Assembly (NCBI RefSeq): GCF_028743515.2 | Contig: NZ_CP117969.2 | Location: 3,009,501-3,073,500, forward strand | From: Imtechella halotolerans | GTDB taxonomy: Bacteria; Bacteroidota; Bacteroidia; Flavobacteriales; Flavobacteriaceae | Direction of reading: 5' to 3' | DNA: 64,000 nt | In this document: positions 2,458-64,000 of the stretch, one piece after another | Layout of the letters: every line of letters starts with the position of its first letter | Numbering within the stretch: position 1 is the stretch's first letter | The notes under the pieces: generated by a model | What the model was told of the DNA's origin: nothing | Databases searched by the model: none | Seen by the model: only the letters and a program-made list of their open reading frames with translations | Made by a program: the position numbers and the translations under genes

Positions 2458-3226
2458 TCAGTTTCCAAGTATTTAATTTTTGAATAGCGTGATGAGCCGT
2501 TAAATCAAATTGGACAGGTACCACGGAAATATATCCGTTTTCAAGTGCCCATTCATCAGTGTCTTGACCCTTGTCTTGATTTACAAATTTACCAGTTAAC
2601 CAGTAATAATTTCTTCCTTGAGGATTTACACGTTTGTCAAATTCTTCAGCCCAAAATGCCTTCGCTTGACGACATACCTTAATTCCTTTTATTTCATTTT
2701 CTTTAAGCTTAGGTATATTGACGTTAAGAACAACATTTTCTGGGATGCCTTCCTCAAGAGCATTTAATGTAATTCGTTTAATGTAATTTCTGGCTGCATC
2801 AAAATCTGCTTCCCAATTATAATCTAGAAGTGAAAAACCAATAGCAGGGATTCCTTCTATTCCTGCTTCTACAGCCGCACTCATAGTTCCTGAGTATATT
2901 ACATTAATGGATGAATTCGAACCATGGTTAATGCCACTAACACATAAATCTGGTTTTCGATTAAGGAGTTCATTGACTGCAAGTTTTACACAATCTACCG
3001 GGGTTCCGCTGCAACTGTATTCTATTTGTTCCCCATCATCTATTGTAATAGGACTGCAGTACAATGTAGAGTTTATAGTTATTGCATGGCCCATTGCACT
3101 TTGAGGGCTGTCTGGAGCAACGACTACCACGTCACCCAATTCATTCATGATTTTTATAAGACATCTAAGACCCGGGGCTGTAATACCATCATCGTTAGTT
3201 ACTAATATTAAAGGCTTTTTTTGCAT
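2450..3226 (-). CDS. surE: 5'/3'-nucleotidase SurE
   Basis: 258 residues. SurE is a metal-dependent nucleoside monophosphate phosphatase of the cytosol. The N-terminal LVTNDDGI motif carries the two adjacent metal-binding aspartates; PDSPQSAMGHAIT and SGINHGSNSS supply the other conserved loops of the family. It heads a leftward run with the small membrane protein, lpxB and the NlpC/P60 lipoprotein. A TATTTTTG element (3249-3256, complementary strand), of the Bacteroidota -7 type, lies 22 bp before the ATG, although no good TTTG partner is seen. Length and motifs are complete. Confidence 0.95.
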   Translation of the reverse strand: MQKKPLILVTNDDGITAPGLRCLIKIMNELGDVVVVAPDSPQSAMGHAITINSTLYCSPITIDDGEQIEYSCSGTPVDCVKLAVNELLNRKPDLCVSGINHGSNSSINVIYSGTMSAAVEAGIEGIPAIGFSLLDYNWEADFDAARNYIKRITLNALEEGIPENVVLNVNIPKLKENEIKGIKVCRQAKAFWAEEFDKRVNPQGRNYYWLTGKFVNQDKGQDTDEWALENGYISVVPVQFDLTAHHAIQKLNTWKLND

Positions 3227-3475
3227 AAGAAAGAAGGATTGTTTGCAACAAAAATAAGCATTTTAAGGGTTATGAAAAGATTACCGGTCGTTTAACAAAA
3301 AATTAGTATCATTGTAAATCAATGGCACAGTTTTTTATATAATTTTAGTGTCAATTCATTTTTCGTAAACTACAGCTGTGTTTAATTGTTGAATGAATAC
3401 AAGGAAGAAAAAAATAGTAGGACGTTTTTTGTGGACTCAACTAATGTCTATACCACCCTCAAAAATGAAAAAGGA

Positions 3476-5584
3476 ATGAAAAGGAATCTAACCTATTTAC
3501 TGTTTGTAGTTCTAATTTCGGCTGCCTCATGTAGCTTTACTACGAAGTCTTTTGATAATCCAGATAAAGACAAAGTATTACTTGAAATTATTAAATATGT
3601 AGTTGAGAGAGGTCATTTTGATCCTAAATCAACAGATGATGAATACTCTAAAGGAGTGTTCAATAGTTTTATAGAAGCTATAGATGGACAAAAACGATAC
3701 TTTTTGCAATCGGATATTGATGACTTTAAGAAGTATGAACTAGAGATAGATGATCAATTGAAAAACAATTCACTTGAGTTTTTTAATGTATCTCACGAAC
3801 GACTTTTAAAGCGTATGGAAGAGTCAAAAGCAATTGTTGAAGAAGTGCTCGTTGATCCTTTTGATTTTTCTACTCAAGAAACTATTAATGTGGATTATGA
3901 AAATTTACCATATGCCACCAATAAGGCTAATTTAAAAGAACGTTGGCGTAAACTTTTAATGTTCTCTACATTGTCGAGTTATCATAGTAAAATGAAAGAG
4001 AATAGTAATTCTGAAAACCCTCGAAGCTCTGCTGAAATTGAAAAAGAAGCTAGAGAGGCAACTCGCAAAACTATTATGGAGTCGTTTGGGTTAATGAATG
4101 ATTTACAGCGTCGTGATTGGTTCTCAATGTATGTTAATAGTCTTGTCGAAGAATTTGATCCACATACTAATTATTTTGCCCCTGAGGATAAGGATCGTTT
4201 TGATGTGAGTATGTCAGGTAAATTTGAAGGTATAGGTGCTCGTTTACAAAAACGTACCGATGGAATAAGAATAGTTGAAGTTATTTCGGGTGGACCTGTA
4301 TGGAAAGAGAAAAGCCTTGAGGTTGGTGATGAAATAATGAAGGTTGCCCAAGAGGGAGAACAGCCCGTTGACATTGCAGGTATGCGTTTGGACGATGCAG
4401 TAAAGTTGATTAAGGGACCTAAAGGGACCAAGGTGTTTCTTACAGTGAAACGAGTAGATGGTACTAATGAGGTTGTGTCGATTGTTCGTGATATTGTTGA
4501 ATTGGAAGAATCTTATGCCAAAACGGCCTTAGTAAGTCATAAAAATCACACTTTTGGAGTCATTAATTTACCTAAGTTTTATATAGATTTTAAAGATTAT
4601 AAGGAGCGAAATGCGGCCTCAGATGTTGCACTTGAAATTGAAAGATTAAAGGCAGAAGGAATGGATGGTCTGGTACTTGATTTACGTGATAATGGTGGAG
4701 GATCTTTGAAAACTGTTGTAGATATGGCAGGTTTCTTTATAAAAGAGGGCCCCGTGGTTCAAGTAAAATCGGCCGGTCAACGTAAGGATGTCTTAAGTGA
4801 TACCGATAAATCGATACTGTGGGATGGTCCTTTGGTGATTCTTGTGAACGAATTATCGGCTTCTGCTTCTGAGATTTTGGCTGCTGCTATGCAGGATTAT
4901 AAACGTGCTATTGTAATTGGAAGCAAACAAACCTATGGGAAGGGAACCGTTCAGAATGTGATTGATTTAAATCAGTTTTTGCAAAACAGTGATTTAGGAG
5001 ATGTAGGAGCTTTGAAAATAACAACTCAAAAGTTTTATCGTATTAATGGTGGGTCTACTCAATTAGAGGGCGTTAAGGGTGATGTAGTGGTTCCTGATCG
5101 TTACAGTTATATTAATATAGGAGAAAAGGATCAGAAAAATCCGTTGTCATGGGATCGTATAGAACCGGCTTCTTATGAAAAGTGGGACGGGATAATGAAT
5201 TATGAAGAAACCGTGAAGAATAGTCAAGAGCGTATGGCTAACAATGACTATTTGAAGCTGGTTGATGAAAATGCAAGATGGGTTAAAAAGCAACAAGACA
5301 ATATGGTCTATCCACTTAATTATGAGGCCTTCAAGCGGGAGTTGGAAAAAGATGAAAGCATGGCGAAGCGTTTCAAAAAACTTTCTGAATACAAAACAAA
5401 TCTAACATTCTTATCATTACCTTATGAGCAAAAAGAGGTGGAGAAGGATGAGGAGCTTAAATTACGTAGAGATCGTTGGCACGAAGCACTTTCGGGGGAT
5501 GTATATGTAGAGGAAGCCATTAATGTGTTAACTGATTTAAAAGAAGCTACAGTTAAACAACGTGTAGCGGCTATAAAAGGATAG
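3476..5584 (+). CDS. prc: Carboxy-terminal processing (tail-specific) protease, S41 family
   Basis: 702 residues from the ATG at 3476. A longer frame opens at a TTG at 3386 but would bury the signal peptide; the chosen start gives a clean lipoprotein signal ending in SAASC (Cys19). Domain order is that of the large Prc/Tsp type: N-terminal helical region, PDZ (about residues 220-310), S41 catalytic domain with SASASE (461-466) and YGKGT (Lys489) forming the Ser/Lys site, then the long C-terminal helical domain. Such proteases trim or degrade envelope proteins by their C-termini. The next gene starts 1 nt after the stop, indicating tight coupling to an ABC permease. Confidence 0.93.
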   Translation: MKRNLTYLLFVVLISAASCSFTTKSFDNPDKDKVLLEIIKYVVERGHFDPKSTDDEYSKGVFNSFIEAIDGQKRYFLQSDIDDFKKYELEIDDQLKNNSLEFFNVSHERLLKRMEESKAIVEEVLVDPFDFSTQETINVDYENLPYATNKANLKERWRKLLMFSTLSSYHSKMKENSNSENPRSSAEIEKEAREATRKTIMESFGLMNDLQRRDWFSMYVNSLVEEFDPHTNYFAPEDKDRFDVSMSGKFEGIGARLQKRTDGIRIVEVISGGPVWKEKSLEVGDEIMKVAQEGEQPVDIAGMRLDDAVKLIKGPKGTKVFLTVKRVDGTNEVVSIVRDIVELEESYAKTALVSHKNHTFGVINLPKFYIDFKDYKERNAASDVALEIERLKAEGMDGLVLDLRDNGGGSLKTVVDMAGFFIKEGPVVQVKSAGQRKDVLSDTDKSILWDGPLVILVNELSASASEILAAAMQDYKRAIVIGSKQTYGKGTVQNVIDLNQFLQNSDLGDVGALKITTQKFYRINGGSTQLEGVKGDVVVPDRYSYINIGEKDQKNPLSWDRIEPASYEKWDGIMNYEETVKNSQERMANNDYLKLVDENARWVKKQQDNMVYPLNYEAFKRELEKDESMAKRFKKLSEYKTNLTFLSLPYEQKEVEKDEELKLRRDRWHEALSGDVYVEEAINVLTDLKEATVKQRVAAIKG

Positions 5585-15792: not shown

Positions 15793-15807
15793 TACACATA
15801 GGTATTT

Positions 15808-15847
15808 AAAAAGAATAAAGCTCCAATTTTGGAGCTTTATTCTTTTT
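15808..15847. terminator. Bidirectional terminator hairpin
   Basis: Perfect 19-bp inverted repeat: the left arm 15808-15826 contains AATAAAGCTCC and the right arm 15829-15847 contains GGAGCTTTATT, with a 2-nt spacer. A-rich and T-rich ends give U tracts in both directions. It sits between the stop codons of two convergent genes (15792 and 15863). Confidence 0.9.
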
Positions 15848-15862
15848 AAGGTATACATGGCA

Positions 15863-52795: not shown

Positions 52796-54094
52796 ATGAG
52801 AAAGCCCCCAATCTTGTTAGTCTTATGTTTCTTATTTGCCCTGCCTGTTGCGGCTCAACGCTTTGTTTTGGACAGTGTGTTAAAGGTGCATCCTGATTTG
52901 GTAAATATGGAAGCTAATGTTTTTAAATATGCTGATTCTTCCTATTATTTTAAACACTTTTTTAGAGCCCTTGACAGTGTGTATGAAGGAAAAAAAGAAA
53001 AAGTACATATATTTCATATCGGGGGTTCTCATGTGCAGGCCGATATTTACCCCAATCGTTTACGTACATACTTGCAAAGTAGTAGTGAGTTTACAATGAG
53101 TCAAAGAGGATTTGTTTTTCCATTTTTATTGGCAAATACAAATAATCCGGCCAATTATAAAGTGACTTCTAAGACTCGTTGGAAAGGAATGAGAAGTTCT
53201 CAAAAACGAGATAGTATTGCATGGGGTTTAGCAGGAATCTCGGCTGTTTTTAAAGACAGTATTGATACAATTAGGGTTGTGGCAAATCATAAAAGTTATA
53301 CTAAGAAACCCTACTATTTCAATAAGCTTAGGATATTTTACAATACCTGGAACACCGGATATTCGATTGTTCCATTAGATAGTTCAACAATTGTAAATAG
53401 CCGACTTGATAATGAATTTCATTATTTGGAATATGTTTTTAATGATTCTAAGGAGGAATTTGAATTTCAAGTTATAAAAACAGACTCCACAACAACGGAA
53501 CCTTTTCTTATGATGGGGATGGAGCTTCTAAATGACGAACCTGGAATTGAATATACTAGTATAGGAGTAAATGGAGCTGATTTCCCATCCTATTTTCGAA
53601 GCGCCTTTTTTGAAAAACAGCTTAGATTGTATAAGCCTGACATGTTTATTGTTTCTATGGGGACAAATGATACCTATATGCCAGAATCTCATTTTGATGT
53701 AGAAAAATTTAAAAATAATTATGAATCCTTTATACAGATGATTCAACGAGTAAATCCAGAATGCGCTATATTGTTGGCCGTTCCAAATGACTCTTATTAT
53801 TTACGCAAGCAACCGAATCCAAACACCGTAAAAGCGGAAGGAGTGATTTTGGAATTAGCCGAAAAATATGGAATGGCTGTTTGGGATTTTTACGAAATTA
53901 TGGGAGGATTTCGTTCTTCACAAAAATGGTATCAAAAAAGAATTATGCCTCGTGATAGAATCCATTTTACTCAGAGAGGTTATCATATTAAATCTGATTT
54001 ATTACTCAAAGCATTTGTAGGTGCTTGGGAAAAGGCTTCTAATAGAGAACCTGGTAGTTTATTAAAAATAATTCTTGAAAACGCCCATGAATAG
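52796..54094 (+). CDS. SGNH hydrolase-like protein, second of a pair
   Basis: 432 residues with a cleavable signal peptide (LCFLFALPVAAQ). The SGNH motifs are modified: block I reads HIGGSHVQAD (Ser78; the usual Asp of GDS is Gly), block III MGTND, block V DRIH (Asp387-His390). An inserted beta domain (about 110-260) splits the fold. It resembles the periplasmic acyl-handling partners found next to MBOAT proteins in alginate and other exopolysaccharide O-acetylation. It lies 4 bp after the first SGNH gene, and the MBOAT start codon is inside its last codons (8-bp overlap). Confidence 0.84.
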   Translation: MRKPPILLVLCFLFALPVAAQRFVLDSVLKVHPDLVNMEANVFKYADSSYYFKHFFRALDSVYEGKKEKVHIFHIGGSHVQADIYPNRLRTYLQSSSEFTMSQRGFVFPFLLANTNNPANYKVTSKTRWKGMRSSQKRDSIAWGLAGISAVFKDSIDTIRVVANHKSYTKKPYYFNKLRIFYNTWNTGYSIVPLDSSTIVNSRLDNEFHYLEYVFNDSKEEFEFQVIKTDSTTTEPFLMMGMELLNDEPGIEYTSIGVNGADFPSYFRSAFFEKQLRLYKPDMFIVSMGTNDTYMPESHFDVEKFKNNYESFIQMIQRVNPECAILLAVPNDSYYLRKQPNPNTVKAEGVILELAEKYGMAVWDFYEIMGGFRSSQKWYQKRIMPRDRIHFTQRGYHIKSDLLLKAFVGAWEKASNREPGSLLKIILENAHE

Positions 54095-55745
54095 GCTGAA
54101 AGACATATTTACCTTTTCGGAAGAATTTCCGTTGATTTTTACTCAGATTAACTTCTGGATATTTTTTGCTGTTGCTTATTTTATATTTGCTTTGTTGTAC
54201 AAGCGGATACATTTACGAAATGCGTATTTACTCCTTATTAGCTTGTTTTTCTATTATAAGACTAGTGGTCTTTTTGTTGGTATATTATTGTTTAGTACCG
54301 TTTCTGATTTTTTTATTGGAAAATTCATTTACAATTCCACTCATGAGTTGAAACGCAAAATACTTGTTACATTAAGTGTGTGTATCAACTTGCTCACGCT
54401 TAGCTATTTTAAGTATGCGTATTTTTTTACAGATTCATTTAATGCTCTTTTTCATACAGATTATGAGGTGGTTAACTGGTTGGCGTTATGGGCTAATGGT
54501 TTTACAGATCTTTCTTATTTTACCGTTGATGCCATCATTTTACCAGTAGGGATATCGTTCTATACTTTTCAAACAATTAGCTACAGTGTAGATATATATC
54601 GTAGTAAAATTACTCCGTTAAATTCCATTGTAGATTTTGGGTTTTATGTAAGCTTCTTTCCCCAATTAGTAGCAGGGCCAATAGTCCGTGCGGAGCACTT
54701 TGTGCCACAAATAACACGACCTACTATTGTTTCCAAGGAGGATTTCAATAAGGGGACCTTTATGATTCTAAAGGGCCTAATTAAGAAAATGATTTTTGCT
54801 GATTATATCGCGATGCACTTTATGGATCGTGTTTTTGATACCCCGGATATGTATTCCGGCTTCACTAATATTATGGCACTTATCGGATATTCATTGCAGA
54901 TATATGGCGATTTTTCAGGATATACCGATATAGCTATTGGATTAGCTTTGCTCATGGGCTTTCAGCTTCCTGTGAACTTTAATTCTCCATATAAGGCTAT
55001 AAACTGTGGTGATTTTTGGAAGCGTTGGCATATTTCACTATCAACATGGTTGCGTGATTATCTTTATATCCCCTTAGGAGGTAACCGTAAAGGAACTATT
55101 GCTTCTTTTATAATACTTAGTGTGTTGTTAATTGGAGTCGTATTTGCTTTAGGGGATCCCATTGTAACGGCAGTAGTGGCTTTTGTGGTACTGGTATTAG
55201 GTGTTTTGGCAATACGATACAAAGCTGTAGGTAAACATATTAATGCGAATATAAATTTGATGTTGACAATGTTGATTGGTGGTCTATGGCATGGTGCATC
55301 ATGGAAATTTGTTCTTTGGGGTGGTCTTAATGGGTTAGGAATTGTCGTATACAAGTACTGGCGGAAGGTAAGTCCATATGAGAATTCTACAAAGTGGTTC
55401 TCCCATTTTTGGAAAATTTTTATCACCTTCTCTTTTATCACCTATGTCCGAATATATTTTAGAGGTGAAAGTATGGACCATATTAGCAAGTGGTACCATC
55501 AGATAGTCACTAATATGGATTTTGAAAATGCGTTGGCAGTTTTAGTTCATTATAAAATCGTGTTTATAATTATGATTATTGGCTATGTGTCGCATTGGTT
55601 ACCTCAAAAATTTAAAGATAACTTAGAATCAAAATATGCCACAAGCCCAATTTATGTGAAAGGTATTGTAGCAACACTGGTTAGTGTATTGTGTTATCAA
55701 GCATTTTCGTCAGATTTTCAGCCGTTTATATATTTTCAGTTTTAA
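54087..55745 (+). CDS. MBOAT family O-acyltransferase (AlgI/DltB-like)
   Basis: 552 residues from the ATG at 54087, which overlaps the previous stop by 8 bp. A longer frame would start at TTG 54075. About eleven or more membrane helices are present. Family motifs include YSVDIYRSK, FFPQLVAGPIVRAEHFVPQ, YGDFSGYTDIAIGLALLMGF, FWKRWHISLSTWLRDYLYIPLGG and the catalytic GLWHGASW (His402). AlgI-like MBOATs carry acyl, mostly acetyl, groups across the membrane to partner SGNH proteins. With the two SGNH genes it forms a three-gene operon; the accepting polymer is not encoded nearby. Confidence 0.92.
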   Translation: MNRLKDIFTFSEEFPLIFTQINFWIFFAVAYFIFALLYKRIHLRNAYLLLISLFFYYKTSGLFVGILLFSTVSDFFIGKFIYNSTHELKRKILVTLSVCINLLTLSYFKYAYFFTDSFNALFHTDYEVVNWLALWANGFTDLSYFTVDAIILPVGISFYTFQTISYSVDIYRSKITPLNSIVDFGFYVSFFPQLVAGPIVRAEHFVPQITRPTIVSKEDFNKGTFMILKGLIKKMIFADYIAMHFMDRVFDTPDMYSGFTNIMALIGYSLQIYGDFSGYTDIAIGLALLMGFQLPVNFNSPYKAINCGDFWKRWHISLSTWLRDYLYIPLGGNRKGTIASFIILSVLLIGVVFALGDPIVTAVVAFVVLVLGVLAIRYKAVGKHINANINLMLTMLIGGLWHGASWKFVLWGGLNGLGIVVYKYWRKVSPYENSTKWFSHFWKIFITFSFITYVRIYFRGESMDHISKWYHQIVTNMDFENALAVLVHYKIVFIIMIIGYVSHWLPQKFKDNLESKYATSPIYVKGIVATLVSVLCYQAFSSDFQPFIYFQF

Positions 55746-56055
55746 ACAAAGTGTGAGTGATTTTTCAACGGCCCTATTGTTCCGAAGAAAATTAATATGT
55801 ATTAGAATCATGCCTTATCCAGCGTTCTAAATATTAAAGATTGTGGAGTTTACTATATGTCTATAGAATTCACTGTAGGTTGTAATTTGGGAAATTTAAC
55901 TTCATTTAGTGCAGAAGGTGCAGATTTTTAAGTGCTTTTTCTTGTTAATTCTGTACTAATAGGTTGAAGTAGTTTATGCATTTCATCGATTTTTTTTGTA
56001 CTTTGACGAATTATAACTATCTTAGTATCAATATTTAGCCTAAAATCTTAAAATC
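55746..56055. other. Gene-free interval (310 bp)
   Basis: This is an AT-rich gap between the MBOAT stop and the LRR gene. I see no plausible gene in any frame, no strong hairpin and no repeat. Near 56000 a T run followed by GTACTTTGACG resembles a degenerate -7 region for the LRR gene, but I do not claim a promoter. Confidence 0.6.
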
Positions 56056-56880
56056 ATGAAAACATTTATGTCACTTTTGGCTTGTTTTCTTGTCTCTGTC
56101 TCATTGATGGCGCAAGTTTCTGATACTGAAAAAACTGCACTTTTAGCACTGTATAATGCTACGCAAGGTGAGCAATGGACTCATACTTGGGATGTGTCTA
56201 CACCAGTTGACCAATGGTATGGTGTAACTGTCGAAAACGGTACTGTTGTTCGTTTGGAGTTAAGTCAGAATAACCTTAAGGGAATACTTCCTGAAAGTAT
56301 TTCAGGATTACAAAACCTTCAAGTTCTGAATCTTGGATTTAATTCCTTGAAAGGTTCTTTGCCTACTTCTATTGGGAATATGAAGTCCTTAAAGCAAATT
56401 GAACTATTTATGAATCGCTTTAGTGGTTCTATACCGTCTGAAATAGGAAAGTTATCCCAATTAGAAACTCTTTCTCTTTATAGTAACCAATTGTCTGGGG
56501 AACTTCCGAAGGAATTATATCAATTACTGTCTTTAAAAGAGTTGCATTTAAATAGTAATATGTTAACCGGATCACTGAGCAACAAGGTTGGTGATATGGT
56601 TAATTTATCAACTCTAAGTTTGTTTGATAATCAGTTAAGTGGCTATGTGCCATTTGAATTAGGAACTTTACCACAATTAAAGGAATTAAATGTGTCCTAT
56701 AATAAGTTCACAGGTACTGTAACTTCAAATATTGCAATGTTGGATGCCATGCACATGATGATGATTTCTAATGATGGTATGGCAACGCAGTTAGCTATAG
56801 ATGATAAACCTAAAACAAAAATAAAAGCAAAAACCATAGAACCGGTGGAAGCTAAAAAAGCCATGGTGTCATTTGATTAA
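56056..56880 (+). CDS. Secreted leucine-rich-repeat protein of plant type
   Basis: 274 residues. A signal peptide (cleavage after SLMAQ) is followed by a capping region like the plant LRRNT domain (TEKTALLALYNAT ... DQWYGVTVENGTVVRLELS). Then come about seven repeats of 24 residues, from about 66 to 232, matching LxxLxLxxNxLxGxxPxxIGxL (for example LNLGFNSLKGSLPTSIG). The C-terminus (about 245-274) is Lys-rich and shows no T9SS sorting domain. It is probably a periplasmic or surface protein-binding scaffold. It stands alone with its own terminator; function is unknown. Confidence 0.9.
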   Translation: MKTFMSLLACFLVSVSLMAQVSDTEKTALLALYNATQGEQWTHTWDVSTPVDQWYGVTVENGTVVRLELSQNNLKGILPESISGLQNLQVLNLGFNSLKGSLPTSIGNMKSLKQIELFMNRFSGSIPSEIGKLSQLETLSLYSNQLSGELPKELYQLLSLKELHLNSNMLTGSLSNKVGDMVNLSTLSLFDNQLSGYVPFELGTLPQLKELNVSYNKFTGTVTSNIAMLDAMHMMMISNDGMATQLAIDDKPKTKIKAKTIEPVEAKKAMVSFD

Positions 56881-56911
56881 CCGATGATGCCACTTCACTA
56901 CGAGAAGATTG

Positions 56912-56940
56912 AAACAGCCTTTTTTATTAGGCTGTTTTTT
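56912..56940 (+). terminator. Terminator of the LRR gene
   Basis: 8-bp stem: AAACAGCC (56912-56919) with GGCTGTTT (56930-56937), loop of ten bases, followed by a T tract. It lies 32 bp after the LRR stop. The opposite strand has an A-rich loop but no U tract, so it acts mainly rightward. Confidence 0.82.
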
Positions 56941-56952
56941 TATTGAATCTTT

Positions 56953-57060
56953 TTAAGAATTTTTATTGAAAGCTATGTCCAATCCATTCTCTGTATTTTG
57001 GGTGAAATTATATTTGATAACACCATCTGATGTGATAATAGAGGGATTTGGAATTGAATA
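56953..57060 (-). pseudogene. Possible remnant of the 3' end of a lost gene
   Basis: A stop-to-stop frame of 35 codons on the complementary strand has a protein-like composition with low complexity absent (IPNPSIITSDGVIKY, then NFTQNTENGLDIAF) and ends in TAA, 15 bp before the LRR terminator hairpin. It has no start codon and is preceded by a stop. It may be the decayed tail of a gene removed when this accessory region was rearranged, or it may be chance. Confidence 0.2.
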
Positions 57061-57093
57061 TTAGTGGGGTAAACTTTTGGATATATTATAAAA

Positions 57094-57125
57094 AAAAAGA
57101 GAACCATTTTAGTGATTCTCTTTTT
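57094..57125. terminator. Hairpin upstream of the AbiEii-like gene
   Basis: AAAAAGAGAA and CA (57094-57106) pair with TG and TTCTCTTTTT (57113-57125) with one C-A mismatch and loop TTTTAG. A and T runs on both sides would allow termination in either direction. It lies 101 bp before the toxin-like gene and would insulate it from upstream transcription. Confidence 0.6.
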
Positions 57126-57225
57126 GTGAAGTATCAATACATAGGAAGTAGCACCAAATGAATTAATGGAATACTTCTTATTTTTTTAATGTTAATTTTA
57201 CAAATTCACCCTTAACATTTCTTCT

Positions 57226-58068
57226 ATGATAGAAACCATTAAAATGTTAACACTTCGCGCTCTTGTCAGTGACGAAAGCCTTATGTACGGGCTAGTTCTA
57301 AAAGGAGGTAATGCTTTGCAATTGGCCTATGGAATGACGGATCGTGCGTCAATGGATATTGACTTCTCGATATCAGGTGATTTTACTGCGTATGAAATTG
57401 GAAGGATAGAGGGTATTCTAAATGGTCTTCTCAATAGTGAGTTTGAAAAACATAATCTAATGGTATTCGATATCAAATTTTATGAAAAACCAAAACAAGG
57501 GGATGTAAAGGAATGGAAGGGGTATAAGTTAGAGTTTAAGGTTGTTGGAGCAGATGAGTTTGATCCAAATGATATGGATAAATCCAGAAGAAATGCATAC
57601 GTAATTTATGATAATAGCTCTACGAAATTTCAAGTGGAAATAAGCAGTTATGAATATACGGATCCTAAAAAGTTAGTGGAAGTGGAAGGAACTGTATTTT
57701 ATGTTTACACCCCTGAAATGATAGTGCTCGAAAAAGTCAGGGCGCTTTGCCAATCAATGCCTGACTATAAAAATATAATCCCCACCGCCAAAGTAAAAGG
57801 TAGGGCTAGGGACTTTTATGATATTTGGAACATCTGTCAAAACTATAACATAGATTTTGAAGCGGAGGAAAATAAAAATATGCTAAAACACATATTTGAT
57901 GCAAAACGTGTCCCTCTGGAGTATTTAAATTATTTCGAAAAGTATAAAGATTTACAGAAAGAAGATTGGAACAACGTAGTTGACACTTTGACCATTGAAA
58001 GTAAAGAAGGGTTCGATTTCTACTATGACTTTGTATTACAGAGGATAGCAGAGCTTAAAATCCCATAG
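57226..58068 (+). CDS. AbiEii/AbiGii-type nucleotidyltransferase (putative toxin)
   Basis: 280 residues. The nucleotidyltransferase signature is complete: LKGGNAL (Gly27-Gly28) and SMDIDFS (Asp44, Asp46), then PEMIVLEKVRAL with Lys170, and RARDFYDIW (193-201). These are the motifs of AbiEii, the toxin of type IV AbiE systems, which adds nucleotides to RNA and halts growth; homologues act on tRNA acceptor ends. The N-terminus before GG is short. The gene converges on an AbiEi-like gene with a 14-bp 3' overlap, unlike the usual abiEi-abiEii operon. No consensus promoter is seen. Confidence 0.88.
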   Translation: MIETIKMLTLRALVSDESLMYGLVLKGGNALQLAYGMTDRASMDIDFSISGDFTAYEIGRIEGILNGLLNSEFEKHNLMVFDIKFYEKPKQGDVKEWKGYKLEFKVVGADEFDPNDMDKSRRNAYVIYDNSSTKFQVEISSYEYTDPKKLVEVEGTVFYVYTPEMIVLEKVRALCQSMPDYKNIIPTAKVKGRARDFYDIWNICQNYNIDFEAEENKNMLKHIFDAKRVPLEYLNYFEKYKDLQKEDWNNVVDTLTIESKEGFDFYYDFVLQRIAELKIP

Positions 58069-58930
58069 GAAAATAGATTCCCCATTTTTCATTTAATTTC
58101 GTTTTGGACATATTATAAGTGAGATAAAAGTTGATGTCCGTTTTTTTATCCAGAAATAAGGATAGTAGCTTGTTATTGCACCCTGCCTTTTCAAGATAAA
58201 AACCTATAAGTTGGTGGTATGGGTAGATGTAATCAAGTTGATTTAAATAGTGATCAAGAATATTTAAATCAACATCTTTTAGTGCATTTTTAAAAGCCTC
58301 TAATACTTCAAATACGCCACCGGAGTATGCCGGTCTAACAGCAATATCAATTAACGTTCGTTCCAAATCGGTAACTCTAATTTTCTTTATCGTTTTTACC
58401 CCAACATCGATTGAATTAGTTTTCTTTTGTAAAAAAGTATAACGATAGCTATCTTCTTCCGACTTGTAGATTTCAGTTGTCATTCGTTGCGGCTTGGAAA
58501 ATGCTTTATCCACGGCAGCTTGTTCCAAATGAATTGTGTCAGTATTATAAGAACCATACTGATCGAAACTAACAAAAATGGTTTTTGGAATCTGTAAAGT
58601 AATTTGATGAATCTGCATTGCAGAAAAATTACTAAGATACCCGTCCTTTTTAATTGTTAGCCCCTTTTGAAAATGCGTTGCGTGGGATTTATTCCAAAGC
58701 TGTTTAACAGAGCCACTAGACTGATGTATCAACTTTTCCTTGTGTAGGATATCATTTGCTTCGAGAAATGAGAGAAAATGTTTGTAGTTCCGATAAGCTG
58801 CAATATTCCACTCCAAACGATAACGATCAAAGATATCTATAAGATCGTTCCGAGTGTAAGATAAATGTGGGGCTTGCTCAAATAAAGTTTTAATATCATC
58901 TTTAGCCCGCAAAAAGGACTCTATTTTCAT
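58055..58930 (-). CDS. AbiEi-like winged-helix regulator (putative antitoxin)
   Basis: 291 residues. The N-terminal 70 residues look like a winged-helix DNA-binding domain. The middle has FSAMQIHQITLQIPKTIFVSF, and the segment RVTDLERTLIDIAVRP (185-200) is typical of AbiEi antitoxin C-terminal domains. AbiEi proteins neutralise AbiEii and repress their own promoter by binding inverted repeats. Here two perfect palindromes and a good promoter lie directly upstream, fitting autoregulation. It is transcribed towards the AbiEii-like gene and overlaps its 3' end. Assignment as antitoxin is by family resemblance and pairing. Confidence 0.78.
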   Translation of the reverse strand: MKIESFLRAKDDIKTLFEQAPHLSYTRNDLIDIFDRYRLEWNIAAYRNYKHFLSFLEANDILHKEKLIHQSSGSVKQLWNKSHATHFQKGLTIKKDGYLSNFSAMQIHQITLQIPKTIFVSFDQYGSYNTDTIHLEQAAVDKAFSKPQRMTTEIYKSEEDSYRYTFLQKKTNSIDVGVKTIKKIRVTDLERTLIDIAVRPAYSGGVFEVLEAFKNALKDVDLNILDHYLNQLDYIYPYHQLIGFYLEKAGCNNKLLSLFLDKKTDINFYLTYNMSKTKLNEKWGIYFPMGF

Positions 58931-58941
58931 AACTCAGTATA

Positions 58942-58965
58942 CATAGTATTATATATAATACTATG
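58942..58965. promoter_or_regulatory. Perfect 24-bp palindrome, candidate AbiEi operator 1
   Basis: CATAGTATTATA (58942-58953) is followed immediately by its exact reverse complement (58954-58965). It lies 12-35 bp upstream of the AbiEi-like ATG and covers the start site predicted from the promoter at 58969-59000, where a bound repressor would block initiation. Confidence 0.65.
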
Positions 58966-58968
58966 ATG

Positions 58969-59000
58969 CAAATCTATACATTTTTTTTGAGAAAAGCAAA
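58969..59000 (-). promoter_or_regulatory. Predicted promoter of the AbiEi-like gene
   Basis: On the complementary strand, TTTG (58997-59000) and TAGATTTG (58969-58976) are spaced by 20 bp, the Bacteroidota -33/-7 arrangement. The start should fall near 58962, inside the 24-bp palindrome. Confidence 0.6.
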
Positions 59001-59043
59001 TAAACGTTCCTCTTATAAAAATATCTATAATCCATAAAGGAAA

Positions 59044-59073
59044 TATAATAATATCATATATGATATTATTATA
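59044..59073. promoter_or_regulatory. Perfect 30-bp palindrome, candidate operator 2
   Basis: TATAATAATATCATA (59044-59058) is followed by its exact reverse complement (59059-59073). The sequence differs from the first palindrome, and the centres are 105 bp apart (about ten helical turns). It may be a second regulator site allowing looping. A cruciform or a terminator for something now lost are alternatives. Confidence 0.5.
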
Positions 59074-59209
59074 CGAAGTTATAAGAAATAAAATTAAAAA
59101 TCAAGCTATAGATAAAATTATTTCGAAGAAGTAGAAATAATAGGATTTGATTACAATTAGCCCAAATTTATATGCCTAGTTAAGGAAACCCCATATTCTT
59201 TCTTGATCC

Positions 59210-59231
59210 GTACTATGTACTGTACTATGTA
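59210..59231. repeat. Short tandem repeat
   Basis: GTACTATGTA occurs twice (59210-59219 and 59222-59231), 12 bp apart, just beyond the tRNA terminator. It may be a replication-slippage product; no function is apparent. Confidence 0.5.
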
Positions 59232-59233
59232 AA

Positions 59234-59266
59234 ATAAAAAAAGGCTCTCGATTTCTCGAAAGCCTT
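59234..59266 (-). terminator. Terminator of the tRNA-fMet gene
   Basis: AAGGCT, C, TCGA (59241-59251) pairs with TCGA, A, AGCCTT (59256-59266) with one mismatch and loop TTTC. On the complementary strand it is followed by a T run (59234-59240). It lies 12 bp beyond the 3' end of the tRNA. Confidence 0.85.
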
Positions 59267-59277
59267 GTCTTTACTAG

Positions 59278-59350
<73 letters not shown>

Positions 59351-59361
59351 ATATTGGACTG

Positions 59362-59392
59362 CAAATATACAGCCATTTTTACATTTGCCAAA
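59362..59392 (-). promoter_or_regulatory. Promoter of the tRNA-fMet gene
   Basis: On the complementary strand, TTTG (59389-59392), 19 bp, TATATTTG (59362-59369): an exact match to the Bacteroidota consensus. The -7 box ends 11 bp before the first tRNA base. Confidence 0.8.
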
Positions 59393-59472
59393 CATTTATC
59401 AATAAAAATTAAAAAATATATTCTCATCCTGTTTTTACTGCCTGAAATAGTTACATTTGGAAAAATATCAAT

Positions 59473-60825
59473 ATGGAAAAAATTACCCAAATCATAGGAG
59501 GACTTACTGGAATTACTGAATGGATTATGTTATTTCTTATAATTGGAGGAGGTCTTTTTTTGGTTGTGAGCTCCAAATTACTACCGTATAGATTTATTAA
59601 GCATGCTATAGAGGTTGTCGCTGGAAAGTATGATAAAGCTTCTGACAGTGGAGAGGTAAGTCATTTTCAAGCATTGGCTTCAGTTGTTGCTGCTACTGTT
59701 GGTTTAGGGAATATTTCAGGTGTGGCTATCGCTATATATTATGGAGGGCCTGGAGTCGTATTTTGGATGTGGCTTACTGCAATAATAGGAGGGTGTATTA
59801 AGTTCTATTCTGCAGGGCTTTCTATTCTTTTTCGAAGTAAGGACGCAGAAGGTAATGTGCAGGGTGGACCAATGTATTATATGGTTAATGGATTAGGAAA
59901 ATATGGTAAGCCCTTAGCAGTATTCTTTTCACTGGCTGGTTTAGTAGCAGTTTTGCCAGCTTTTACGGTAAATCAATTTACTCAATCTGTGATTACCGTT
60001 GTTAATCCAAATGCGTATTTAGATATTGGGGAGTTTAATTGGAAACTCATTATTGGGATAGTCTTGGTGATAGCAACCTCAATGGTTATTTATGGGGGGT
60101 TAAAAAAAATTGTCCGCGTAGCTTCTGCATTGGTTCCCTTTATGGTAGCTCTATATATATTGGCGGCCCTAGTAATAATGTTTACTAATGTCGATCAAAT
60201 ATTACCTTCATTTCAACAAATTTTTGCGGAAGCATTTAATTTTAATACGGCAGTTCAAGGAGGATTCTGGGGATTGGTTATATTAGGAGTCCGCAGAGCT
60301 GTGTTTTCAAATGAAAGTGGAATAGGTACGGCTCCTATGTATCACGGACAATCTAAAACTAATGAGCCAATTCAAGAAGGATTGGTAGCCATGCTAGGAC
60401 CTTTTATTGATACTTTGATTGTATGCACAATTACTGCGCTAATAATTATTATCAGTGGCACCTATCTTGAAGCAGAGCATAATGGGATTGTAATGACATT
60501 GCATGCTTTTGATAAATTATTGTTTGGTTTTGGTGACGAATTACTTTTACTACTAGTAGTTGTGTTTGCCATTTCAACCCTATTTACCTACTCTTACTAC
60601 GGGACAAAGTGTCTCACTTTTTTAGCAGGACGTAAAATTGGTAGTTATTACAACACTATTTATATTTTCAGCATTATCTTTGCAGCGATTGCTTCACTAG
60701 AATTGGTAATAGGGTTAATCGATTTGTCATTTGCATTAATGGCTATTCCCAATATGATTGCGGTACTTTGGTTGTCACCACATATAAACAAAGCTATGAA
60801 AGCTTACTTTTCTAAAGTTAAATAG
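59473..60825 (+). CDS. Alanine/glycine:cation (sodium) symporter, AGCS family
   Basis: 450 residues with about ten to eleven membrane helices. Family motifs: HFQALASVVAATVGLGNISGVAIAIYYGGPG near residue 65, QGGPMYYMVNGLGKYG, and GVRRAVFSNESGIGTAPMYHGQS in the middle. AGCS carriers import alanine or glycine with sodium. A TACATTTG element (59452-59459) 13 bp before the ATG may be its -7 box, divergent from the tRNA promoter. It precedes era by 53 bp on the same strand. Confidence 0.94.
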   Translation: MEKITQIIGGLTGITEWIMLFLIIGGGLFLVVSSKLLPYRFIKHAIEVVAGKYDKASDSGEVSHFQALASVVAATVGLGNISGVAIAIYYGGPGVVFWMWLTAIIGGCIKFYSAGLSILFRSKDAEGNVQGGPMYYMVNGLGKYGKPLAVFFSLAGLVAVLPAFTVNQFTQSVITVVNPNAYLDIGEFNWKLIIGIVLVIATSMVIYGGLKKIVRVASALVPFMVALYILAALVIMFTNVDQILPSFQQIFAEAFNFNTAVQGGFWGLVILGVRRAVFSNESGIGTAPMYHGQSKTNEPIQEGLVAMLGPFIDTLIVCTITALIIIISGTYLEAEHNGIVMTLHAFDKLLFGFGDELLLLLVVVFAISTLFTYSYYGTKCLTFLAGRKIGSYYNTIYIFSIIFAAIASLELVIGLIDLSFALMAIPNMIAVLWLSPHINKAMKAYFSKVK

Positions 60826-60878
60826 TCAATAAGTCTGTTAAACAGTTAGCAGTATAAAATAAATATCATATCGTAAAA

Positions 60879-63240
<2,362 letters not shown>

Positions 63241-63277
63241 AAACCACTGTAATTTTGTCTCAATTATTGCCAGTACT

Positions 63278-63307
63278 TTTGTAAGAGCATAGGAAATATT
63301 ACCTTTG
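63278..63307 (+). promoter_or_regulatory. Predicted promoter of der
   Basis: TTTG (63278-63281), 18 bp, TACCTTTG (63300-63307). The -7 box ends 18 bp before the der ATG, so the gene is likely to have its own promoter despite following era and the choice-of-anchor I gene. Confidence 0.6.
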
Positions 63308-63325
63308 CCCCATAAAATCACATAT

Positions 63326-64000
63326 ATGAGTGCAATTGTTGCCATAGTAGGAAGACCTAATGTTGGAAAATCTACCTTATTCAATAGGTTGATCAAACGT
63401 CGCGAGGCCATTGTAGATGCAGTTAGCGGTGTTACCCGTGATCGTCATTATGGAAAAACCGATTGGAATGGAAAGGAGTTTTCTATAATTGATACAGGAG
63501 GTTATGTAGTAGGTAGTGATGATGTCTTTGAACAGGAAATTGATAAGCAGGTTGAGCTAGCCATAGAGGAGGCCGATGCTATCATCTTTATGGTTGATGT
63601 TGAGGCAGGTATTACTGGGATGGATGAGGCAGTAGCACACTTACTTAGAAAGTCTAAAAAACCCGTCTTTCTTACTGTAAACAAGGTCGATAATGCCATG
63701 AGAGAAGCTGACGCTGTTGAGTTTTATGGATTAGGTTTTCAGGAGTATTATACGTTATCGGGAATAAATGGTAGTGGGACTGGAGAGCTTTTAGATGCCA
63801 TAGTAGAGGTGTTGCCAGAACGCGAAACTATTGAAGAAGATTCATTACCGAGATTTGCGGTGGTTGGTAGACCAAATGCTGGAAAGTCGTCATTTATAAA
63901 TGCTTTAATAGGAGAGGATCGGTACATTGTGACAGATATTGCAGGCACCACTCGTGATGCAATTGATACGCGTTATAATAGGTTTGGATTTGAGTTTAAT
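63326..64000 (+). CDS. der: Ribosome-associated GTPase Der (EngA), 5' part
   Basis: 225 residues are visible before the window ends, about half of a normal Der. The first GTPase domain has [15 protein letters not shown] and NKVD; the second begins with [11 protein letters not shown] and [11 protein letters not shown]. Two tandem G domains are unique to Der, which acts in 50S subunit assembly. The second domain and the KH-like C-terminus lie outside the window. The start is the ATG at 63326 ([11 protein letters not shown]). Confidence 0.97.

Follow-up and report, generated by a model that had tools for sequence, protein, structure and literature searches.

Why does a single antitoxin gene carry two long, mirror-perfect palindromes in front of it? 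The 64-kb stretch of DNA analysed here (hereafter the window, in its full length) contains an AbiEi-like antitoxin gene with a 24-bp and a 30-bp perfect palindrome upstream, and the original prediction took these for operators whose spacing would suit looping or cooperative binding. We find that both palindromes are most likely on/off switches of the antitoxin gene. More specifically, the comparison of related sequences leads us to favour, with a probability of about 60%, a reading in which they would be dedicated operators for autorepression by the AbiEi-like protein, belonging to a diverged AbiE family, with a core that is read as sequence and arms in which only symmetry counts. The features concerned are:

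59102-59104, minus strand: TTG, -33-like box of the distal promoter, N20 from its -7 box
59074-59081, minus strand: TAACTTCG, -7-like box of the distal promoter (5/6 consensus letters), ending 1 nt before the distal unit
59044-59073, minus strand: distal palindrome, 30 bp, perfect; 28-bp unit 59045-59072, dyad 59058/59059
58997-59000, minus strand: TTTG, -33 box of the proximal promoter, N20 from the -7 box
58969-58976, minus strand: TAGATTTG, -7 box of the proximal promoter (6/6 consensus letters), ending 1 nt before the 28-bp frame
58942-58965, minus strand: proximal palindrome, 24 bp, perfect; 28-bp frame 58940-58967, dyad 58953/58954
58055-58930, minus strand: AbiEi-like gene, 291 aa, with the motif DYIYPYHQ
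58055-58068: overlap of the 3' ends of both genes, 14 bp
57226-58068, plus strand: AbiEii-like nucleotidyltransferase toxin gene, 280 aa, without a palindrome in front

Two palindromes before a tail-to-tail gene pair

Recomputation bore out the coordinates and lengths predicted for the two palindromes, together with the distance of 105 bp between their centres. The proximal centre is located 23 bp upstream of the AbiEi-like start codon, and pairs 13-14 of the proximal 28-bp frame are unpaired. No perfect palindrome in the 64-kb window is longer than the 30-bp distal and the 24-bp proximal one, and besides these two there is one further perfect palindrome of at least 20 bp. When the AT-rich local sequence (348 bp) was simulated 3000 times with an order-1 model, a single palindrome of at least 24 bp arose in 3 runs, and neither one of 30 bp nor two of 24 bp ever did; 3000 order-2 runs of the same 348 bp did not yield even one palindrome of at least 24 bp. 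Together, these simulations rule out a chance origin of both palindromes. The AbiEii-like gene was predicted to lack such a palindrome in front, and a whole-window scan and inspection of the sequence agree with this.

The two genes lie tail-to-tail and do not form an operon. By its sequence, the toxin-like protein is a clear AbiEii, matching PF08843 (E 3.7e-22, 79.9 bits, cut-off 22.5) and the PADLOC AbiEii model (E 1.8e-16). The AbiEi-like protein, which has a winged-helix-like N-terminal part and a nucleotidyltransferase-like antitoxin domain at its C-terminus, matches the PADLOC AbiEi model (E 4e-18) and reaches 17.6 bits against PF09407, under the cut-off of 22.2. NCBIfam gave no match for any of four proteins tried, and a sequence search of solved structures returned just two matches at E 0.15, S. 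agalactiae AbiEi (6y8q) and an AbiGI protein. As modelled by AlphaFold (pLDDT 92.3), the antitoxin has the AbiEi fold of a winged helix plus a nucleotidyltransferase-like domain: the model aligns with M. tuberculosis Rv2827c (1zel; Z 14.3, 242 residues aligned, 4.7 A) and with 6y8q (Z 11.8, 185 aligned, 4.5 A), the next family in the structure comparison being MenT1 (Z 7.6).

Several other elements of the same genome were observed. A second AbiE-like pair, which is co-directional, lies near position 1342136 (L002; G000:C1); no core-bearing palindrome precedes its antitoxin gene, and the sole mirror-symmetric site, found about 530 nt before the antitoxin start within another reading frame, has no core. 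A tRNA-Met gene at window positions 59277-59350 adjoins the locus with its 3' end towards the abiE pair; the 3' side of tRNA genes is a common place for inserted islands, and among the ORFs listed for 54000-64000 none looked like an integrase on inspection. Between the distal promoter and the tRNA gene lies a tandem-like repeat, GTACTATGTACTGTACTATGTA (59210-59231), that is 77% complementary to the proximal palindrome stretch 58940-58961. An almost perfect 44-bp inverted repeat with A/T tails at 15806-15849 is probably a two-way terminator.

The palindromes accompany a subfamily of AbiEi-like genes

We compared 46 loci, comprising the window, 18 loci from genomes, 24 from among 38 plasmid records and 3 from one Bacteroidota genus. 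They come from groups including Bacteroidota, Bacillota, Pseudomonadota, Campylobacterota, Planctomycetota, Acidobacteria, Desulfomonilaceae and Zixibacteria. The motif DYIYPYHQ is common to all 19 sequences of the first alignment, and because this string was a search pattern, the set of loci leans towards it. At E 1e-10, no further relative was found among 397 genomes of the host's family or in the genus, which was represented by the window's own genome; viral contigs gave no relative, and phage records gave none to the L012 protein, the single query used there.

The genes are tail-to-tail in 34 of the 46 loci (the window included, and L015 with a mere AbiEii stub) and head-to-head in 9, with an AbiEii partner in 7 of these and a HipA partner in 2 (L043, L044). 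None of the 43 loci with an assigned layout (all except L011, L019 and L048) is co-directional. AbiEii is split in L029 and L042, both head-to-head. Since the bicistronic, antitoxin-first arrangement is absent, we file these loci as a diverged sister family and not as classical abiE operons.

Of the 46 loci, 45 have mirror-symmetric sites upstream of the AbiEi-like gene; 6 of them have a single site, 24 have two, 10 have three and 5 have four or five. Sites scoring at least 9 numbered 106, as compared with about 1.6 expected per order-1 simulated set. The sole exception is L042 (Streptococcus suis), in which both sites are now without symmetry, the AbiEi-like gene is annotated as two pieces and AbiEii is split across two frames. 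A broken AbiEii alone does not remove the sites, because L029 and L040 have AbiEii in two pieces and yet keep theirs intact.

As a control, we fetched 34 other AbiEi loci of the same phylum by their match to PF09407, mostly from one genus (g282) and without regard to gene layout, and dropped five (L049, L052, L058 and L076 for want of a start codon, L065 for a frame problem). None of the remaining 29 has a site scoring at least 10.5, and no control protein contains DYIYPYHQ. It should be noted that PF09407 does not cleanly separate these controls from the family studied here, since 8 of 19 family members match it weakly at E 0.01. Comparison thus shows a 28-bp palindromic unit tied to this AbiEi subfamily in several phyla and located at predicted transcription starts.

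A decaying locus is probably represented by L015, where the AbiEi frame (2974-3960) is without the usual C-terminus, the nearby AbiEii match covers the first 50-60 residues only, and one of the two cores is short-armed. In L008, a stray promoter and palindrome unit without an AbiEi gene (4801-4829) lies past abiEii and is directed away from it, perhaps as a remnant or a decoy.

A 28-bp unit with a conserved core and symmetric arms

We profiled 95 sites in 44 loci, counting pairs from the dyad; this set excludes six weak sites (L016 -275, L024 -303, L023 -330, L039 -353, and L030 -251 and -75), as well as L040, a near-duplicate, and L042, which has no site. Complementarity among the sites is 96-100% at pairs 2-12 and falls through 87% at pair 13 and 81% at pair 14 to 47% at pair 15 and 36-49% beyond; as pairing drops to background at pair 15, the unit is about 28 bp long, although the arms are longer in some loci and reach 32 pairs in L016. 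Sequence information follows a different course, with 1.1-1.6 bits at pairs 1-5, about 0.6 at pairs 6-7 and 0.04-0.31 at pairs 8-14. The centre pair is paired in 82 of the 95 sites, and pair 2 is always paired and is conserved. A hairpin loop would not need a paired and conserved pair 2, which argues that the core at least is used as duplex.

Because the sites were first found by their symmetry, which biases detection, we repeated the profile on cores picked by sequence alone, taking every GTATATATAC or CATATATG that lies upstream of the genes (again without L040 and L042). The 71 occurrences, from 36 of the 44 loci, are complementary at pairs 6-12 in 93-97% and at pair 15 in 48%, and 62 of them have perfect arms of at least 12. 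The perfect arm is shorter than 11 in eight, of which five (L010 twice, L011 -144, L032 and L038) still pair at 4-5 of positions 8-12; the other three, L011 -29, L015 -33 and L024 -444, have 3, 1 and 1 of these positions paired. In L032 and L038, two mismatched pairs stand beside the core and perfect pairing then resumes, which argues that the outer arms are maintained for their own sake.

The core is mostly GTATATATAC, in flavobacteria and their relatives TCATATATGA, and in the window's proximal site TTATATATAA; further variants are GTACGCGTAC, GTATGCATAC and GCGTTAACGC. Inspection by eye of the recognition-helix residues against the core sequence revealed no simple link independent of descent. 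At several sites of L046-L048, which come from one Bacteroidota genus, the near-perfect arms enclose a central AA or TT that is not palindromic (GTATAAATAC, GTACAAGTAC). Within the window, the distal and proximal sites differ at pairs 4, 8 and 12, each on both sides. The distal core, allowing 0-1 mismatches, occurs nowhere else in the window's own genome, so the sites look dedicated. A wider regulon is not supported: with up to two mismatches, one other imperfect place appears in the genome, and a reversed control pattern finds no fewer. The window sites fold as single-stranded DNA with modest energies of -7.4 and -5.4 kcal/mol, to which we attach little weight because every palindrome can fold.

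Each palindrome lies at a predicted promoter

The promoter predicted between the palindromes, TTTG-N20-TAGATTTG, was located on the minus strand as claimed, and directly before the distal palindrome there is another, previously overlooked pair of promoter-like boxes with the same geometry, TTG-N20-TAACTTCG. Thus, not only the first palindrome, as originally predicted, but both sit at predicted start points. In eight flavobacterial loci (the window, L003-L008 and L021), a TAnnTTTG box with 5-6 of its 6 letters ends exactly 1 nt before the 28-bp unit at all 15 sites. Given a -7 box in this position before each unit, the window has two predicted promoters in tandem.

Outside these eight loci, the register is looser and many loci have no promoter box in a fixed position. 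The remaining 13 Bacteroidota sites scanned (L009 was left out) are less regular, with a perfect box 4-5 nt away in three. Among the 17 loci of Bacillota and Campylobacterota scanned, 10 sites in 8 loci have a good -35/-10 pair with the -10 hexamer in the 5' arm, beginning 11-15 bp before the dyad. The best start predicted for L017, L029 and L034 is 27-30 bp upstream of the proximal dyad.

The presence of two sites is explained more simply by each sitting at the start of its own promoter than by a DNA loop. Looping, which had been proposed from the spacing of the palindromes, is unsupported, since the spacing in relatives varies between 57 and 191 bp and takes many different helical phases. 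The other part of that proposal, that the palindromes are operators of the AbiEi-like gene, very probably holds: on comparative grounds it is supported by the sites in 45 of 46 loci, by their register with the promoters and by their loss in L042.

The arms change on both sides

Compensatory change between relatives had been suggested as a check, and the outcome is strongly positive. We formed nine non-overlapping pairs of related loci, whose proteins are 61-95% identical, and matched their sites by order from the gene. At positions 2-13, 35 differences are two-sided and 3 one-sided, where independence predicts 5.8 two-sided, and all 35 two-sided differences preserve pairing. At positions 15-20, by contrast, 29 are two-sided and 57 one-sided, and independence predicts 29.0 two-sided. 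The matching of sites is doubtful for L011/L016 and L026/L031; on the seven safest pairs, the counts are 17 two-sided and 1 one-sided inside the unit (1.8 two-sided expected) and 16 and 44 outside it (17.2 two-sided expected). Two-sided changes are already present among L003, L006 and L007, whose proteins are 92-96% identical.

Neighbouring sites within one locus show the same pattern. Over outer positions 8-13, 130 of 306 comparisons differ on both sides and 6 on one side. The arms are identical between the sites of a locus in the head-to-head Lactobacillales (L029, L034, L035, L036, L041), and may for this reason be read as sequence there; without these, the 32 loci with at least two sites give 129 two-sided differences of 264 and 6 one-sided. 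As neighbouring sites face the same protein, reading of the outer arms as sequence fails to explain these changes. The comparison shows that the outer arms keep their symmetry without keeping their sequence, which is more than the suggested check asked for.

Proposed mechanism and alternative explanations

We propose that the AbiEi-like antitoxin represses its own gene through both palindromes. A symmetric pair of AbiEi-like molecules would sit on each unit with one winged helix per half, read the inner 5-7 pairs and shut out RNA polymerase. The AbiEii-like gene is transcribed from the other side and lies outside the reach of these proposed operators, so its control must rest with the antitoxin protein or with converging transcription. 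In the outer pairs 8-14, symmetry as such would be selected or enforced, because these pairs stay complementary but do not stay the same in sequence. The reason we would prefer is that the unit folds back as DNA, in a cruciform or hairpin, at some step. It is possible, and we suggest it tentatively, that the operator is partly read as a shape, with the arms forming such a structure at the promoter, which may be recognised by AbiEi or another factor or may itself gate transcription. Integron attC sites provide an analogy, as their palindromic arms stay paired while the sequence varies, the folded strand being what is recognised. They are no more than an analogy, however, since attC sites are recombination sites with defined extrahelical bases and not operators.

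The main rival to folded DNA is that an ordinary core operator is flanked by useless arms, with template-switch correction at replication keeping their hairpin perfect. Near-palindromes are known to undergo hairpin-templated correction, two-sided changes already separate relatives as close as L003, L006 and L007, so that unpaired intermediates must be short-lived, and some loci, such as L016, do have longer arms. We nevertheless consider it rather unlikely: pairing stops rather sharply past pair 14, where correction should leave drifting ends, the pattern is found in none of the 29 control loci, and the window holds just the one other perfect palindrome of at least 20 bp, though also the 44-bp near-perfect repeat. 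That these are ordinary operators, in which every one of the 14 pairs per half is read as sequence by an AbiEi-like dimer and symmetry is a mere need of the dimer, is unlikely. Such a dimer would not tolerate many changes and yet demand each of them on both sides, as the same-locus comparison of 129 against 6 outer differences would have it do; on the other hand, the core is conserved across phyla, the arms are identical within head-to-head Lactobacillales loci and common to L035 and L041 (proteins 63% identical), and inverted repeats are bound by related AbiEi proteins (PMC3985639, PMC7319586).

A hairpin formed by the antitoxin mRNA at its 5' end is suggested by the flavobacterial unit, which begins at about +1 so that the transcript would open with the hairpin, and by L017, L029 and L034, where the upstream predicted starts would have the proximal site transcribed whole. 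It is nonetheless very improbable. At 10 sites in 8 loci, the predicted -10 box is the 5' arm itself, which puts the expected start of transcription near the dyad and leaves the transcript without the hairpin; this objection does not apply to L017, L029 and L034. RNA stems are usually rich in G-U pairs; the 13 arm mismatches in the 95 sites include, in small numbers, just 5 G-T and 3 A-C, and the paucity of G-T pairs makes selection on RNA unlikely. Recombination or resolution sites, or remnants of mobile elements, unrelated to AbiEi are brought to mind by the location of 24 of the 46 loci on plasmids, by recombinase genes near some of them, and by the fact that serine resolvase sites are also inverted repeats of about 28 bp in sets of two or three. 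We give this explanation hardly any credence, since the palindromes accompany the AbiEi-like gene regardless of its neighbours, keep a fixed register with promoter boxes in many loci, and, elsewhere in the fetched flanks, recur as core-bearing sites in L008 only.

The usual account of an operator is one of sequence recognition, whereas here symmetry itself seems to be the trait, in several phyla; mirror-perfect upkeep despite changing letters is no requirement of ordinary protein-binding sites. If the operator is partly read as a shape, the switch would be sensitive to DNA supercoiling, to single-stranded DNA or to cruciform-cutting enzymes, each of which may vary when a phage infects or a plasmid is transferred. 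Should the arms work in folded form, a phage-defence-type module would contain a sensor of DNA topology or of single-stranded DNA that can be put to the test, and this would offer a way into the triggering of AbiE. Otherwise, the arms would be an unusually clean bacterial example of biased palindrome correction.

Relation to known AbiE systems

Classical AbiE is described as a bicistronic operon with 23-bp inverted repeats (PMC3985639, PMC7319586), and for both antitoxins matched here by fold, Rv2827c and S. agalactiae AbiEi, binding to the promoter of their own gene is reported there. Inverted repeats over that promoter, a mark of AbiE, are found in the window also, in a form unlike the classical 23-bp repeats. 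The type IV AbiE of S. agalactiae shares with the window the AbiEii nucleotidyltransferase partner, the AbiEi fold and inverted repeats at the antitoxin promoter. It is an operon, however, and its site consists of two 23-bp repeats 3 bp apart with 4 mismatches (PMC3985639), whereas the window has tail-to-tail genes and one continuous 28-bp palindrome whose near-perfect arms are free in sequence. Similar repeats at other abiE loci are mentioned in the same paper, with reference to a supplementary figure.

The closest solved fold, that of M. tuberculosis Rv2827c-Rv2826c, also comes with several operator repeats across the promoter and reported autorepression; its genes form an operon with four 23-bp repeats of differing affinity, arranged in two pairs with 13-bp gaps, and perfect dyads are not described in the accessible sections (PMC7319586). 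In the AbiE of ICESsuHN105 from Streptococcus suis, AbiEi binds the palindromic IR1 and IR2 in its own promoter and the oriT of the element too (PMC11062541), whereas the distal core of the window is single in its own genome at 0-1 mismatches. Within the literature searched, which left preprints and most subscription papers outside, we found no tail-to-tail AbiE and no sequence-free palindromic operator.

The loci described here add tail-to-tail and head-to-head layouts to AbiE, as well as two loci with HipA in place of AbiEii. In these two Campylobacterota plasmids (L043:249-2582 and L044:241-2588), the AbiEi-like gene and its palindromes lie head-to-head with an annotated HipA-family toxin gene, a possible partner swap. 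On the Lysinibacillus plasmid NZ_CP106866.1 (hit H27), the AbiEi-like protein matches at six separate places.
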